Source of the DNA: Pavlovales sp. CCMP2436
Lineage: Eukaryota; Haptophyta; Pavlovophyceae; Pavlovales
Assembly (NCBI GenBank): GCA_026770615.1
Contig: MU631441.1
Location: 132,758 to 145,256, forward strand
Direction: 5' to 3'
DNA length: 12,499 nt
Part shown: positions 2,363-12,417 of the stretch, one piece after another
How positions within the stretch are numbered: position 1 is the stretch's first letter
Layout of the letters: every line of letters begins with the position of its first letter
Translations under genes and position numbers: made by a program
Notes under the pieces: model-generated
What the model was told of the DNA's origin: nothing
The model's database searches: none
Seen by the model: only the letters and a program-made list of their open reading frames with translations

Positions 2363-5249
2363 ATGGCGCGTACGCCGGACGATGCGGGTGAGTGCGACAA
2401 GCTTACCGGCGACACGGGCGAGGGTGGCGTGCACGTGGGCGAAACGGGGGGTGGCTCGCTCGCGCGCGCGAGGACGCGCGCGTAGTGCTGCAGCGCGCTC
2501 GTCTGCGGTGACTTCTCGCGCTGCTGGCGTGCGCGGCCCTGGGATTGGCGCCGCGCTTGGAGCGCTGGCTCACGCTCGCTTCGCTTCCGCACGCGCGGCT
2601 GCCGGCGGAGCTGCGCACCGGTTCCGCTCGGGGTAATTAGCAGTAATAGAAGTAGTAGTAGTAGAAGCTGAGCAAGGTAGCTTCCTAGTCATCTCACTGT
2701 CAATCTCACTGTCACCCCCCCTCCCTCCCCCCTCCTCCTAAAGCCCCCCTCCCCCTCCGATGGAAGTAGGTGGCCTCTTGCGCGGCTCGCACGATGCTAT
2801 TGTGCTGCTGACACTCAGCCCGGGCGGCGAAGCCGGTTACAAGGGCAAGTATGCGAGCACCCCCTACTCCCCTACAGTACCTCCTACTCCTGTTCCTGCC
2901 CTTGCCCTACACCTACCCCTGCCATCTTACATCCACCCCAAATTCGCCCTCCCCCCCCACTGCAGCCGCTCACGGGACACAAACGGCTGGCCACCCAACG
3001 CCAAGGCTATGCGCGCAGTCTACGAGTCCAGTGTGAGATGTTACGCATGGCTGCACAGCTACAAGCTTGTCATCGAGCGGAATGACCAGCGCGCGCGCCA
3101 CCGCTTCGTCGGCGGCGGCGAGCTGCACGGCGCCGCACGCCTTAAGAAGAGCGTGTGTGTAAATATCTATAAAAACGTCTGGCCCCGTAAAGGTCTCCCA
3201 GTCTCCCAGTGGTGCAGCAACAACACACTGTTAGCCTAGGACCGTTCCCGAGCACACGGATAGCGTCATCATCCCCTCGTCGTCATCTGAGCTTATTCCC
3301 CCCTCCTCTTCCCTCCCCCTCCCTCCTTCCTAAACAGCGCCAACGTCCTGGAGCACGATGCAATGCATGCGCACACGTCCCTTCTCCTGACCCCTAACTC
3401 CCTGCTTCTCTCTCCTTCTCTCTCTCTCTTTGTCTCACTCACTCACCCCCCCCCCTTCCCCCCCTAGGTTTACTCAGAAGAGCTCCAACGCCCTGGAGCG
3501 CCAGTCCCTCCTCGTGTTGCCTGCACCCTACTCCCCCTCTGGGTCAAGGTGGACCTCTTCGAGGAGCACCTCGGCCGCGTGGCGTGGGCGCTCTGGCTTG
3601 ACTCGGACGTGATTGCACTCAGGTGGGGATGTTATTTGCACACTTATTTGTCTGCTTATTTTGTGCTACAGGTGCGGCACGTGCGCAGGCGAGCTGCATT
3701 TTGAAACGAGCGAGAGGCAGCAGCGGCCGGTCAGCGCGCCAGTCAGAGAGTCGTCGACTGTTGTTTGCCTGATCAGCCTTAGCGGTGGGGACGGTATCCG
3801 TGTGCTCTGCAAAGCTCCCTTGATTCGAGTGTTTCTCAACGCTTGGGTCCGTTGGAGACCTGTCAGGTGACGGACGTTGATCTAGATATTTACAAACATA
3901 CTCAGCTTGCCAGAGCCGCTCGAGCACGTGCTAGAGCGCGTATCCACCGCCTCAACCGACGTCGTTGTCATCGCGTCAAGGCTCGTCGGCGACGCGGCGA
4001 CGCAGATCGCGCAAACCGTGACGGCGGGTGTGTTCGCCGTGCGCAACTCGGCGGGCGGCTGGTGGTTTGTCCGTCGCTGGTTCGCACTGCGCGAGTTCGT
4101 AGATCTATGGGGGGATCAAGGTGGTTTTGTTTTTGTTTTGTTTTGATGATGATGGTGGTGATGATGCTTAACTCCTTTTTGCTCTATTCAATTTGATATA
4201 TTATTATCTTACCGTGGCAGCGGGCATGGTGTAGTATACTTACCATACTTTTGATCATGATTGTATTCTTGTTGAACCTATTACAAAGTGCCTTCATGCA
4301 TACTCTCTTTGTGCATTACACTAAGCTGCCACTAGGTGTGGGGCGCTGTGAGCAGCAGTAATACTGTGATATAATCTTATCGCAATACTGCAATATATTA
4401 CTATGATATGATGCAATATAATCTCATATAATATTACAATATAATCCTGACTGTAACTATAAAATAAAATAAAAATAAAAATCATAATACTGACGGGGAT
4501 CAAGGTGCCTTCATGCATTTTTTTTTTTTCGCTCTCTTTGAGATGCACCTTCGCCACGCTGATGATGATTTACTGCCTTTTTTCTATTTTATTTGTTGTA
4601 TTCTATTCTTACCACGGCAGTGGGCACGGGGTAGTATTCTTAACTTAATAATGATTATGATTGTATTCTTGTTGAACCTATTACAAGCTCAGGGGGGCTG
4701 AGCGCCCCCTCCCACTGCAGATATCATGAAAGCCACCCTCAACGCCTAGGGCGGTTGCGGGTGTGTTGAAGGGTCATACCAACTAACTAAGTAATTAAAT
4801 ACTAATCATAATTAGGTGCCTTCATGCACGCTCTCTTTGACATGCACCTTCGCCTTACTTTTTATTCGATTTAATTTAATTATTATGTGTACCTTATTGT
4901 ACCTATTACAAGGTGCCTTCATGCACGCTCTCTTTGAGATGCACCTTCGCCACGCCGCCTCGCTCGCCGCCGGCGCCGGCGCGCCGCCATGGTTCGACCG
5001 CGCCTATGACAGGTGCGGAATCCATGTCTGTGCAGCCACTGGAGCCTGTCCACGGTGAGAGCAAACAACAACAACAACAACAACAACAAAATGGCAGTGA
5101 GAGCAGACTGTGAGAGCAGACCCCCTACATGAATATAATTACGTACTCATATATACGTGGTACACGTATAACACATCATGCTATATACTACCGTGATGAT
5201 GATGATGATGATGCCACTACTACACTACAACTACTACTCAACTACTACA

Positions 5250-5298
<49 letters not shown>

Positions 5299-5767
5299 GG
5301 TCGATCACGACGTCCCGTACATGGCCCGCGAGCTCTCCAAGCTCCCCGGGCTTCCGCACGCCGATGAGCGCACGCACTGGCCGGTGGCGTGGAGCACAGA
5401 GCTGGCTGTCAACATGGGCAACCTTCGCCGACGCGAGGGCCAGTCGGTCGTCGAGCAAGAGCGCGCGGTCGCGCGCAAGGTCACGCTCGACGGCAAGTCG
5501 CGACCCGTGCTGTTCGCGCACAGCAAGACGGGCGACAAGTACCCCCTGCTCTCCATGTACCGCAGCCGCACGATCGCCGAGCTCGCGCACAGATGTCCGC
5601 CGGGCATCGCGCACGCCAACGCGTCCGAGTTCGTGCAGGGCGCACTGCTCACCGCCGACCCCTCGCCGGCGTACGCGCTGCTCGCGCGCGGCGTTGTCGA
5701 TCGGCTGGTGTACAATTGGCAGGGCAGAGATGACGCGCGACTTGCAATCATTGGCGTTCCAAGATAG
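2363..5767 (+). CDS. GT-A glycosyltransferase, GT34-like, split gene
   Basis: It should transfer a sugar from a nucleotide-sugar to a glycan acceptor, probably in the endomembrane system, although no signal anchor is seen. Proposed exons: 2363-2387 (MARTPDDAG), 2770-2848, 2966-3158, 3468-3622, 3906-4120, 4913-5012, 5036-5054 and 5300-5767. Introns are GT-AG and the phases match. A first beta strand (DAIVLLTLSPG) is followed by RCYAWLHSYKLVIE, then WVKVDLFEEHL and ALWLDSDVIAL (exon 4). The last holds the D-x-D motif that binds metal and nucleotide-sugar in GT-A enzymes. Exon 5 gives TAGVFAVRNS, like the N-x-G-x-F-x-x-R-N region of GT34. The exon 5/6 junction gives LWGDQGAF. The last exon (YMARELSKLPGLPHADERTH ... 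IIGVPR) I do not recognise. Uncertain points: the start could be the in-frame ATG at 2760; exon 3 could end at 3152; and the frame changes between 5012 and 5036. It could instead belong to another GT-A family with a similar D-x-D core. Confidence 0.8.
3340..3400 (+). repeat. Degenerate copy of exon 4 start inside intron 3
   Basis: A CCAACGTCCTGGAGC segment beginning at about 3342 in intron 3 (3159-3467) matches CCAACGCCCTGGAGC at 3484-3498 in exon 4 with one difference. Weaker similarity (GTCCCTTCTCC against GTCCCTCCTCG) continues downstream. It is preceded by a pyrimidine tract and AG, as a real acceptor would be. It is probably a dead partial exon duplicate. The match is short, so chance is possible. 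Confidence 0.4.
3819..3896 (-). repeat. Dispersed 78-bp repeat, copy A (in glycosyltransferase intron 4)
   Basis: The reverse complement of this stretch aligns without gaps to 9447-9524, at about 80% identity by hand count. Both copies are open in the same frame with shared residues VCK, RPSP, DP and VEKH, but the substitutions show no third-position bias, so coding constraint is not supported. It sits at the 3' end of intron 3623-3905, antisense to the host gene. Probably a relic of a mobile element. Confidence 0.8.
4121..4912 (+). repeat. Intron 5 built of tandem units with copies of exon 6
   Basis: The 792-base intron carries three extra partial copies of the start of exon 6 (true copy from 4913). 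They are at 4287-4310 (truncated), 4495-4559 (with a T-run inserted) and 4814-4854. Two longer units share further blocks. TTACCGTGGCAGCGGGCATG at 4210 matches TTACCACGGCAGTGGGCACG at 4609, and ATTGTATTCTTGTTGAACCT followed by ATTACAA occurs at about 4259 and 4657. The copy at 4495 begins GGGGATCAAG joined directly to GTGCCTTCATGCA, which equals the spliced exon 5/6 junction. Extra AGGT sites in these copies could act as cryptic acceptors. Confidence 0.85.
4747..4797 (+). repeat. Inverted dispersed repeat, copy 1 (in intron 5)
   Basis: A block starting TAGGGCGGTTGCGGGTGTGT matches the reverse complement of 7444-7498, with a similar run of CTAACTAA/TTAATTAG-type sequence on its right side. It interrupts the tandem exon-copy units of intron 5, so it was probably inserted after those units formed. 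Likely a small mobile-element fragment. Confidence 0.75.
5013..5035 (+). other. 23-base frame break: mini-intron or frameshift
   Basis: Exon 6 reads well to FDRAYD and AG at 5012, but the downstream exon needs another frame. Bases 5013-5035 start GTGCGG and end TGCAG. Removing them gives AG|C, continuing SHWSLST into VDHDVPYMARE with matching phase. A 23-base intron would be unusually small. Alternatives are a single indel in the assembly or a true frameshift; without removal, the later frame reads VRNPCLCSHWSLST here. Confidence 0.4.
5055..5299 (+). repeat. Intron packed with three trinucleotide microsatellites
   Basis: This 245-base intron of the glycosyltransferase gene holds (CAA)n at about 5062-5090, (GAT)n at about 5193-5212 and (CTA)n at about 5250-5298. 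The acceptor AG (5298-5299) forms directly at the end of the CTA array, as CTACTAG|GTC. Length change of the array would therefore act right beside the splice site. Confidence 0.85.
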
Positions 5768-8523: not shown

Positions 8524-11500
8524 TCATTCGGACGGGCTCGCTTGGTCGACCGGCAGCCCCGGTGGCGAGCTGCTGCTGCCGGCGCCGGGCTCCTCCTCGT
8601 CGAGCGCGAAGGAGCCGAGCACTTGGATGAACTTATGGACGCCAGGCGAGTCCTTGTCGACGCATAGGTTGAGCCCCGCCGCCTCGAACTCGTCGCGCTC
8701 GAAGCAGCCGTGCGGGTCGCCCGTCATTCCGACAATCACACCCTCGAATCCACCCGCACGCAGGGTACGTGTCGCTATTTCACCGGTGAGGACGGGCATC
8801 TACTTGCATACAGAGGATTGCAGGCAATAAGAATGGCGAATTTTGAGTTGAGGCCCACTTTCTTAGCAAATTACTTTCATTCGTTTACGGGGCCGGACGT
8901 TTTTTTAGATATTTAAACCGTCGTGTTTGTTTCGATTTGTTTTGCTGATTTTTTGCATGCTTTTGAAAAGCATCAAGAAACTACTTCGGGGGCACTTTCA
9001 AAACTCAGTTTTGTACCTAGCAGTAATTCCGAAGATACTCCTGGACGTAAATTTGGACGGTGAATGTCTTCGGTAATACGTGGTTCGAAACCTGGTTCTG
9101 AAGAGAATGACGAGTAAAATAATGGCCTCCGAAGTGCGAGTGTTGTTTTGACTCGGATGCTGAAATCTTCGGAGGTTCAGTTCGTGTCCTTCCCTTCAAA
9201 ATAAGGTGCTGGTACACAACGCCAAAGATTTTTCTCGTCAAACCCTGCGTCTAGGCGTCTCTTCCGAATTAAACACAAGAAATTATTCATATTCATTCAA
9301 TACTATTTCTCAAATGAACAAGGGGATGGCCCGGTGAGACCTACGATGGTTAAATTTTACTTACTGTGAATTACTATTGAAGGGCAAAAAAGCGAGGCTC
9401 AAGTTCTTAACGTTAAGGATTCTTACTGCCCACGACCGACCTCCTGTGTGTAAACATCTAGAATTACGTCCGTCCCCTGGCTGGTCTCCACCGGACCCAC
9501 GCGTTGAGAAACACATGGAACAAGTGAATAAACTTAGGTCAGGAACCCAGGTGACAGAGCAGTCACGGGTGTCGTAATACGGTAGTGGTGAAACGCACCT
9601 GGTTGTCCATCAGCACGAGCGCGTACTTGCGCTTCTCCTCGAGGATAAGGCGCACCTGTAGTTTTTTGTGTATATGTTTCGGTGCTGGTGTGAGTGTGTC
9701 GGTGTTGGCGTGTGTGTCGCTTTGTGTGTGTGTGTGTGTGTGTGTGTGGCGCTCACCGCCTCGGCGCCGTTCACGGCCACGTCGTATGGCACCCCGAGCT
9801 TCTTTACAACGCGAAGCTCAAACGAGCGGCGCAGTAAAGCGTCATCCTCCACGTGCAGCATGCGGAAGTCAGGAGGGAAGCAGAGCTGCGGCCGCGCCTG
9901 GCTTTTACTTTTGGCCGCGTCCAACGCCCTGCTAGCGCCGCCCCCCGGTATGCCCTCCCCGAGTGTACCCGCCACGGCCGCAGTCGACCCGGAAGTGGAG
10001 CGGGTAGGCAGTAAGACCGCAGCGGCCAGCGTCATCGCTCCCCCTGGGGTTTTTCCATGATTGTATTTCGGGTTATCACGGCGCTCGTTGACGATGGGCG
10101 TAGTCTCGGTTGAAGCTTGCGAGTTCGGGTGCGACTGCGCAAGAAAGAGCCGTTTGGCGAGGCCTGGCGAAACATCACCTAGCACAAACGAGCCCTCTGG
10201 AGCCTCGGCCAATGCAAGCTCGAGCCGGAACGTGGAGCCATGCCTGTGGCCTACCGATTCGAGGCGCATGCGCGAGCCGCCTATGCACAACACAACACGC
10301 ACAATACTTACAATAATCAGGTACGTGAGAGCACATTATGCCCTGACTGACCGCCTCTGACTGTCTGCTGCCCGCGTTTATATTAATCAGTCGTATACAC
10401 TATCAATGTCGGTAAGGCAAGCACATGGCTGGGGGCTTACCAAGCATATAAGTATTCACCAGGCAAAGGGCAGTGGGCTAAGGGCAGCCCTACCGTGCAG
10501 CTTGAGGAGTTCGCGGACGATGGTGAGGCCGAGGCCAGTGCCGCCACTGCCCTGCAGCTGCCCTTGGCCCACCTTCGGGTTGAGAGTAGGGGTGTGGGTG
10601 GGACAGAGTTAGTGCATACGCAGTTGTGGGTGCAGGAATAGGGCTAGCCACTGGAACACACCTGCATGAAAGCCTCGCCCTGGTTGAGCACGTAAAGCTC
10701 GTCGGTAGTAAGTCCCGCGCCCGAGTCACCCACCTCGAGCACGATAGACGCGTAGGGGACGGCCGCCGCCGCCGGCGCCGCTGCAGCGGCGGAGCTAGCG
10801 TGGGGCTCGGCCTGCGCTTGGGTGTCGTCCCCGCGCCGCGCGCGAATGGTCACCGTGCCGCCCGCCTCGGTGAACTAGACGGAAAAGAGTAGGAACGGGG
10901 CGCATGCGAGGCAAGAAAGACAAAATACACGGTGAGCTGCGCGTCGGCAATACAGATAGTTTTCCACGCGAGTATTCCACGCGAGTCTGCAGCTGGCGCG
11001 CGCAGGTGCACACGGGGCGATAGCCTGGCGCGCGCAGGCGCACACGGGAAGCGCACACCTTGATCGAGTTGCTGACGCCGTTGTTGACGCACTGCTGCAG
11101 CCGGCGCATGTCGCCTGCACAGTGTAGGGGAGGGTTGGAAGGGCGGGATCAGTTTGTGGGGGTATAGAGTGGACGTTCGGGCGTAGGCGCCTACGAGCCT
11201 ACCGATAAAGACCGCGCGCTCGAGGTCGGGGAGCAGCGGGACGAGGCGCAGCGTGACGCCCTTGACCGCGGCCAGGCCGCCAAAAGCGTCGGCCGCTGCC
11301 TCCAGCAGCTGCGAGATACGCATCGCGGCCGGTACGAGGACCAACCTCCCTGCGGACGGACAGTCAGCGAGGGTAGGTAAGGCAGAGCAGAAGTGGGGCA
11401 GTTGTCAGGCAGCCAAGTGCGGTGCGGTAGGGGCCAGCTTGAACTCACCACTGTCGATACGCTCGAAGTCCAGCATGTCCGAGACGATGTGCTGCATGAG

Positions 11501-12417
11501 CTGGCTGCACGTGGCCATCGCGCGCAGGCACTCGACGACGACTGAATCGTCGACGCGAGTATGGGGCATCATATCGAGCACAATCGCGACCGCATTGGCC
11601 ACGGAGAGCAGCGGGCTGCGCAAGTCGTGCATCACCTGGCAGGAGCAGAGTGGTGGTCGAAGTATTAACAGGGTGGCGCGAGTCGCACACTCAAGTGAGA
11701 GCAACCACTAACACGCACGCGTGGGAGAACTATTGGGCCTACCATCCGGATCAAGCTGCTGCGGGCATTCTTGGCCGCCTCAGCGGTGCGCAGCTTGAGC
11801 TCGACTTTCGCCTCGTGCTGCAGCATCCGCTCGCGCTCGGCTGCTGCCAACTCGCGCTGCGACGCGTTTGCATCGATCGCACGGTAGCTTTGGTAGGCGG
11901 TGCGCATTGCAGTGTTGATGCTGACGCTGACCTACAAGACGTTGGGATGTTATGAGTGGTGGGTGTGAAAGCGGGGCAGGCAGTGCGGGCAGATAGGAGC
12001 AGGAGCAGAAGTGTATAGGTACGTACGAAGACCATCACAGCCTCGAGCAAGCCATGGAACAACGCCCCGAAGATACGCTCGATGATCTCTATGCGTCCCA
12101 GTGCCGAGCAGGAGAGCAGCGGGATATCGCGCGCGAGCAGGAGGGCCTGGCAGGTTGCAGGTGCGCGGGAGGGAAGGCAGCAAACATTGCAGTCGCCGAC
12201 AGTCAGCGGACGCGACGATGTGCAGGTTTGCGCGCGTGCAGCAAGCGCGCAGTCTCACCGTGTTGATGGTTACCCCGAGCGTGCCAGCGCATGCGATGAC
12301 AGCGCAGTGGCGGACATCGAGCTGTGCATAGGCCGCGGCGAGCGATGCGATGAAGAGCTGGTATTCCGAGATAGCGCTGCGCCCGATGGTTGGGGTCTCC
12401 CGCAGTCCGCCGAAGAG
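8524..12417 (-). CDS. Hybrid sensor histidine kinase, 5' end outside window
   Basis: It should autophosphorylate on His and pass the phosphate to its own receiver Asp, as a membrane-bound phosphorelay sensor. Twelve exons fit with all phases matching: 12417-12259, 12146-12027, 11931-11743, 11635-11449, 11349-11203, 11114-11059, 10874-10662, 10572-10494, 10280-9757, 9655-9599 and 8799-8524, eleven complete exons, plus unseen upstream ones. The first two encode hydrophobic, probably membrane-spanning segments. The third is a charged, coiled-coil-like linker. HisKA follows with MHDLRSPLLSVANAV (phospho-acceptor His at 11629-11627). HATPase_c shows the N box (RLQQCVNNGVSNSIKFT), G1 (GDSGAGL), F-box-like GEAFMQ and G2 (GGTGLGLTIV), ending GSTFRLELAL. 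A low-complexity linker leads to a complete receiver: acidic pocket VEDD, acceptor Asp in LMDNQMP (9607-9605), Thr in GMTGDP and Lys in CVDKD. It ends SPSE at 8524. No sensor domain is visible, so the signal is unknown. Confidence 0.93.
8800..9598 (-). repeat. Enlarged kinase intron carrying repeat sequence
   Basis: This intron (GTGCGT...AG) is 799 bases, while the other kinase introns are 88-213. It falls between MDNQ and MPVLTG, splitting the receiver just after its phospho-acceptor site. It contains repeat copy B at 9447-9524, a palindrome ATGCTTTTGAAAAGCAT near 8957, an inverted pair CCTCCGAAG/CTTCGGAGG around 9126-9177, and several further CTTCGG/CCGAAG words. Insertion of a mobile element is the simplest reading. 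Confidence 0.75.
9447..9524 (+). repeat. Dispersed 78-bp repeat, copy B (in kinase intron)
   Basis: It aligns without gaps to the reverse complement of 3819-3896, sharing blocks such as ACGTCCGTC, GGTCTCCA, CGGACCCA and GCGTTGAGAAACAC. It lies near the 5' (donor) end of the 799-base intron, antisense to the kinase gene, as copy A is antisense to its own host. Confidence 0.8.
9723..9748. repeat. (TG)n microsatellite in a 101-base kinase intron
   Basis: A run of TG repeats fills much of the intron 9756-9656. On the kinase-coding strand it reads (CA)n, shortly after the GTGAGC donor. Confidence 0.9.

Follow-up and report, generated by a model that had tools for sequence, protein, structure and literature searches.

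A predicted intron made largely of repeated exon-6 starts in a sugar-transferase-like gene of Pavlovales sp. CCMP2436

The gene and its copies in the genome

The stretch of DNA analysed here, called the window, covers 12,499 nt of one contig (C135:132758-145256). Genome searches were carried out over the 119-Mb assembly with its 703 contigs. Two protein models match the window. P0008 (T492DRAFT_906185, Pavlovales sp. CCMP2436) is encoded at 2382-3236 in two pieces at 99%, and two pieces of the partial model P0010 (T492DRAFT_997839) align to 4921-5732, one at 87% and the other at 97%. They represent the 5' and 3' portions of a single gene, and the intron described below, intron 5, is left out by both models. 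The C-terminal end of P0008, at about 3140-3236 of the window, is within a dispersed repeat (most of 106 matches are to the repeat) and is therefore probably not coding.

In a profile search, the joined window exons scored 17.3 bits against PF03407 (Nucleotid_trans), below the cut-off of 22. Against the same profile the homolog P0003 scored 30.3 bits and P0004 scored 21.4 bits, and P0003 reached 19.7 bits against Glyco_transf_34, whose cut-off is 23. By these similarities, the gene resembles a GT34/Nucleotid_trans-like sugar-transferase.

A sister locus is found on contig C37. Its gene is a single open frame from MARTPDG to the stop, with seven exons and six GT-AG introns whose boundaries were picked by us to keep the frame. 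Compared with C37, the window gene misses single bases near 2450, 3538 and 5012 and has a TGA at 2509-2511, four frame lesions altogether. The window copy is probably a young pseudogene, so statements on splicing are safer for C37. C37 has one extra base near the 3' end, and its last residues RRRQR differ from the window and from the MMETSP protein P0009. Over the codons compared, dN between C37 and the window is 0.027 and dS is 0.068, and over aligned sites in the gene the two contigs are about 4-6% divergent. The similarity runs from window position 2338 to at least 9319, which is the end of the C37 stretch compared. It is absent between C37 117001-121000 and C135 149001-155000. This absence argues against allelic contigs, and a segmental copy is tentatively favoured.

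Contig C316 carries a third, partial copy that skips window 3603-4836, and TTGAC is common to both sides of the join (L022:5092-5096; an alignment overlap). The transcript open reading frame of P0009 mixes C37-type and C135-type residues. By eye, there is an in-frame TAG at the end of intron 6, and the reading frame opens at the next ATG. P0009 is possibly a further gene copy with intron 6 retained.

Exon-6 copies and shared cores inside intron 5

Exon 5 is located at 3906-4120 on the plus strand, as are all parts of the intron given below. It ends with GGGGATCAAG, and its frame is common to C37, to a paralog on contig C3 and to the protein homologs. Intron 5 would extend from 4121 to 4912 (792 nt; 927 nt in C37), followed by exon 6 at 4913-5054, which is one base short of C37 near 5012. 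With boundaries taken from the reading frames, CAAG/GT (slash, splice boundary) stands at both 4120/4121 and 4912/4913, which agrees with the AAG/GT reported for both ends in the preliminary description. The predicted join in C37 (L021 5620) leads from GGGGATCAAG to GTGCCTTCATGCACGCTCTC. Once joined with boundaries chosen to keep the frame, the C37 exons read GDQGAFMHALFEMHLRHA. GDQGAF is found in P0002, P0003, P0004 and P0007, in a comparison limited to the stretch up to and around these residues. The frames predict splicing of intron 5 as drawn here; protein searches returned no product of the window gene or of C37 that spans the exon-5/exon-6 junction.

The start of exon 6, from 4913 on, has three more copies inside intron 5, as had been claimed. 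Copy 1 (4288-4320) is identical to exon 6 at 22 of 24 positions up to 4311 and is diverged beyond. Copy 2 (4505-4559) is identical at 43/43 positions when an inserted run of T12 is set aside. Copy 3 (4814-4854) shares a 41-nt repeat with exon 6 at 98%. With T12 apart, copies 2 and 3 match exon 6 at 40 of 41 positions.

The copies are arranged within three units. Unit 1 (4111-4287) comprises the exon-5 end, a decayed, T-rich, exon-6-like stretch and an AT-rich core. It is followed by copy 1 and by 174 nt of filler (4321-4494). The start of unit 2 (4495-4559) consists of GGGGATCAAG joined directly to copy 2 with its inserted T12, and the AT-rich core of this unit (4560-4687) ends with TATTACAAG. 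A dispersed repeat, named SINE-like in this analysis, occupies about 4687-4800; it is 5'-truncated with a degenerate CTAA tail, and its 3' limit is approximate. Copy 3 then leads into the short core of unit 3 (4855-4912), which has weak homology to the other cores and ends with TATTACAAG, the predicted acceptor of intron 5. The same unit order, T12 and SINE-like repeat are present in C37. The T12 insert, the SINE-like repeat, the frame lesions and the sister locus all go beyond the preliminary description.

When both strands were searched, the window yielded two occurrences of GGGGATCAAG, one closing exon 5 (4111) and one at 4495, and 10 kb of C37 likewise had two. At 4495-4509 GGGGATCAAG passes seamlessly into GTGCC. 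Copy 2 starts at 4505 with no intron between, which upholds the earlier claim that the exon junction is preserved here without an intron. On its left side, unit 2 opens with exactly the final ten bases of exon 5. The proto-splice site CAAG/GTGCC is present at the true acceptor boundary and also at 4501-4509.

The cores of units 1 and 2 (4159-4286 and 4560-4686) are identical at 105 of 126 sites, and the score of 135 compares with a shuffle mean of 20.2 and a maximum of 30 (n=300). The C37 alignment, split by a 121-nt insert in unit 1, gives 84/102 sites and a score of 64 (shuffle maximum 37). Shared intronic blocks had been proposed for all three units. They hold well for units 1 and 2 and are weak for unit 3. 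The window cores of units 2 and 3 align at 43/47 with gaps (z 6.2), in C37 this comparison only ties with the best shuffle at a score of 29, and units 1 and 3 align with a score of 32, short of the best shuffle at 35. The block ahead of unit 3 was also considered as an end of the filler and was rejected with a score of 22, inside the shuffle range (maximum 26).

The seamless GGGGATCAAG-GTGCC joint is what would be expected from a failed intron loss, in which a spliced cDNA recombined into the locus and the copied junction landed in the intron. However, the copied sequence takes in only ten bases from exon 5 and 43 from exon 6, and the downstream core is common to unit 1. If a tandem duplication has its left edge within the final ten bases of exon 5, it carries along the junction in its state at that time; it accounts for the junction and the core together, and no retrocopy is needed. 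The retrocopy is thus improbable. The earlier view was that it would explain the junction and not the shared blocks; the junction itself is no longer a puzzle, since one tandem duplication copies it.

The 5' end of unit 1 was compared with the exon-6 copy of unit 2, in an alignment that rests partly on T runs and a common TGATGAT. The score was 31.5 in C37 (shuffle mean 8.5), reached by 2 of 2000 dinucleotide shuffles, and 22.0 in the window (mean 3.3), reached by 0 of 2000. The control against exon 6 without T12 gave P 0.0085. Because unit 2 and the decayed unit 1 both run from GGGGATCAAG into an exon-6-like stretch, exon-6 sequence probably stood at an earlier 5' end of the intron, with the CAAG/GT of the coding junction as its donor.

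Age of the array and repeats within it

The preliminary description had proposed to date the divergence of the units. The core divergence between units 1 and 2 is JC 0.19-0.20. Between C135 and C37, 48 of 789 aligned intron-5 sites differ, which gives JC 0.063. The larger value for the cores indicates that the unit duplication is older than the locus duplication. The array is present in both C37 and C135; it therefore predates the locus duplication, and assembly error is unlikely. Repeats are a usual source of assembly error, but two contigs about 4-6% apart carry the identical unit order, SINE-like repeat and T12, and an artefact is hardly credible.

The exon-6 copies (4288-4320, 4495-4560 and 4815-4853) differ between C135 and C37 at 2/138 sites, versus 46/651 elsewhere in the intron (one-sided Fisher test, 0.005). 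Such conservation, together with a T12 insert that preserves the frame, might suggest that the copies are under selection as alternative or decoy exons or as AG/GT re-splicing points. This is very unlikely. By eye, there is no GT donor directly after copy 2, copy 1 diverges after 24 nt, and the divergence of the copies is like that of ordinary exons, where 53 of 1359 sites differ (P 0.23). The low divergence could come from gene conversion by exon 6, from later re-copying, from a lower rate in GC-rich sequence, or from selection; gene conversion or a lower GC-rich rate would look like selection. Copies 2 and 3 are near-identical to exon 6, yet there is a 17% difference between the unit 1 and unit 2 cores, and a duplication of a single age does not explain both.

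The SINE-like repeat sits between units 2 and 3 at both loci. Its family, with a CTAA tail (L005-L020), accounts for most of the at least 42 matches to the intron-5 query, with 40 of 491 first-look candidates scored. When this repeat was taken out, intron 5 matched only C135 and C37 in the genome, plus exon-6 stretches at C316 and others. The filler matched C135 and C37 only. The tail of the intron in C3 matched C3 only. The genome searches with core, filler and C3 tail skip very common words. A mobile origin of the whole array was considered and is not supported, as in these searches core and filler match only C135 and C37. The middle of the C3 intron is another dispersed repeat (GGGATTCAAGCTGGCGTC..., L036:4310-4404; L048-L076) with at least 48 matches, 40 of 251 first-look candidates having been scored. 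The C3 intron was likewise rejected as an introner: its middle is this dispersed repeat, but in a search that skips very common words its tail matched C3 alone. The dispersed repeats inside these introns are apparently passengers.

Origin of intron 5 and comparison with known intron gains

In the paralog on C3, the stretch matching exons 1-5 is a single open frame that lacks introns 2-4. At a distance of 1 nt from the position of intron 5, at GDQ/G, the paralog carries an intron in phase 0 that is 174 nt long (within L036:4281-4464). An ancestral intron is possible because of this neighbour. The alternative is that an old intron already lay between exons 5 and 6, and that duplications across its 3' splice site only enlarged it by adding intronic exon-6 copies. 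The C3 intron and intron 5 both begin with GTG. P0001 is identical to the C3 gene up to the donor of this intron and leaves the frame exactly there. Past the donor it moves on, by eye, to the exon after next, read in a different frame, and its contig of 1516 nt is shorter than the genomic span; because of these two features, P0001 may be a transcript that skips exon 6. In the Diacronema lutheri model P0005, too, the sequence diverges at GDQ. Exon counts in Diacronema are treated in PMC8379373.

Several observations stand against enlargement alone. As far back as the 5' end of the window intron can be traced, it consists of exon-6 sequence. The C3 intron differs from intron 5 in phase and is bounded at either end by a 9-nt direct repeat of its own, GCGACCAGG; this repeat suggests a separate insertion. 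C282 reads VDQGAW through the site with no intron at that codon, and P0002, P0003, P0004 and P0007 continue across it as proteins, whose underlying DNA may be genomic or cDNA. In the homolog tree only C3+P0002+P0003, one of three inner branches, is well supported, which leaves C37 without a firm position. Enlargement of an older intron is a serious possibility and the less probable one; birth of intron 5 is favoured on the sequences compared.

Direct repeats at intron ends were tested on eight of the nine introns placed in the C37 and C3 genes; C37 intron 3 was omitted, as its donor is ambiguous (GTGTGTGT). The donor and acceptor sides match at 4.25 positions on average, versus 2.66 in 56 mismatched pairs (20,000 permutations, P 0.001). 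The signal comes from three introns, with 9 bases in C3 intron 5, 7 in C37 intron 5 and 6 in C37 intron 4. The other five introns have 0 to 4, and the mismatched pairs range from 0 to 6. Separate gains in C3 and in C37/C135 are more likely than one sliding intron, about two to one. A wider reading is more tentative and is held at somewhat under even odds. It says that the GDQ/G junction gained introns twice in one alga, by exon-start tandem duplication in C37/C135 and by insertion with a 9-nt target duplication in C3, that introns of these genes in general were born by local duplication, and that unit 2 is the fossil of a former 5' end.

Our main reading, with a probability of roughly 0.6, takes intron 5 as a spliceosomal intron that consists for the most part of repeated copies of the exon-6 start and of an AT-rich core, and that was born by duplication and later enlarged. 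The gene would at first have had no intron here. A duplication would have taken in at least 43 nt of the exon-6 start, with the two copies set apart by about 120 nt of AT-rich filler. The exonic CAAG/GT of the old junction would have served as the donor and TATTACAAG/GT at the filler end as the acceptor, and the protein would have stayed GDQ-GAF. In what is the least firm step, the unit of exon start and core may then have been repeated, yielding the short unit 3. The next step is well supported: a tandem duplication beginning at the last ten bases of exon 5 would have copied GGGGATCAAG, the exon-6 start and the core, leaving the 174 nt of filler at the duplication junction. Unit 2 would then be the fossil of the former 5' end of the intron, and unit 1 would have decayed since. 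The two remaining steps can be read directly at the loci, namely the entry of the SINE-like repeat between units 2 and 3, seen in both, and the separation into two diverged locus copies, C37 and C135, with the C135 frame broken.

The preliminary description had suggested an intron born or enlarged by duplication of coding sequence in repeated rounds. That much of intron 5 derives from duplicated coding sequence, in more than one round, is well supported; birth is favoured over enlargement less firmly, in view of the C3 intron and of the acceptor end. The suggested model of a duplicated AGGT segment, with GT from one copy and AG from the next, is borne out by the exon duplicate and by AG/GT in the segment. 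It fails at the acceptor end, TATTACAAG (TAATACAAG in C37), which matches the exon-5 end in CAAG only. The scheme is therefore not the pure one of Rogers.

According to the account in PMC4974935, the source sequences are known for few gained introns. The Rogers model, cited there with ATP2A1/ATP2A2, shares with our case a duplicated exonic segment, AG/GT at the junction and a spliced product that is predicted to be unchanged. Unlike that model, an AT-rich filler between the copies supplies the acceptor here, further rounds and a SINE-like insert followed, and splicing is read from the reading frames. An acceptor from outside the duplicated exon segment fits the broader version argued in PMC4974935. 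That source, which also summarizes ATP2A1 and fission-yeast cases, describes the second intron of potato RdRp as arising from a duplicate that crosses an intron-exon boundary. As here, the new potato intron combines the exonic segment of one copy with the intronic segment of the next and uses intronic acceptor signals. Unlike here, the duplicate crosses a known older intron, and splicing is proven by RNA reads, whereas ours is read from frames. Two fission-yeast introns, SPOG_01682 and SOCG_00815, are tandem exon repeats (PMC3629103). They resemble intron 5 in having tandem exonic copies with a proto-splice site; they differ in having 24-nt repeats with AGGC, and the cited part of that report mentions neither an AT-rich core nor an inserted repeat. 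Near intron pairs in Drosophila were explained by sliding or by proto-splice-site duplication (PMC2891723, in the portion cited). These also place two introns at almost one site, whereas here the offset is 1 nt and the introns are in paralogs of one genome.

Introners have been described in Chrysochromulina, which is a haptophyte. As outlined in PMC9860276, direct repeats border the sites of introner gain, among them 4-bp duplications in Chrysochromulina. The C3 intron is similar in its flanking 9-nt repeat. Unlike introners, the core and filler of intron 5 match only C135 and C37 and the C3 tail matches only C3, in searches that skip very common words.

A literature search over titles and abstract openings, mostly without subscription papers, returned none about this intron. 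Intron formation by local duplication of coding DNA is known and rarely caught. Intron 5 belongs to this known class of mechanism, and its history is unusually easy to read. With the source exon, the junction that was duplicated and an earlier stage of the 5' end all legible, such a case would allow the steps of intron birth to be ordered and tested.

Two features lie elsewhere in the window. In the profile search of its minus strand, five other stretches gave no match, and a HisKA domain was found at 11405-11707. A perfect 34-nt inverted repeat with arms 9 nt apart is located at 458-534.
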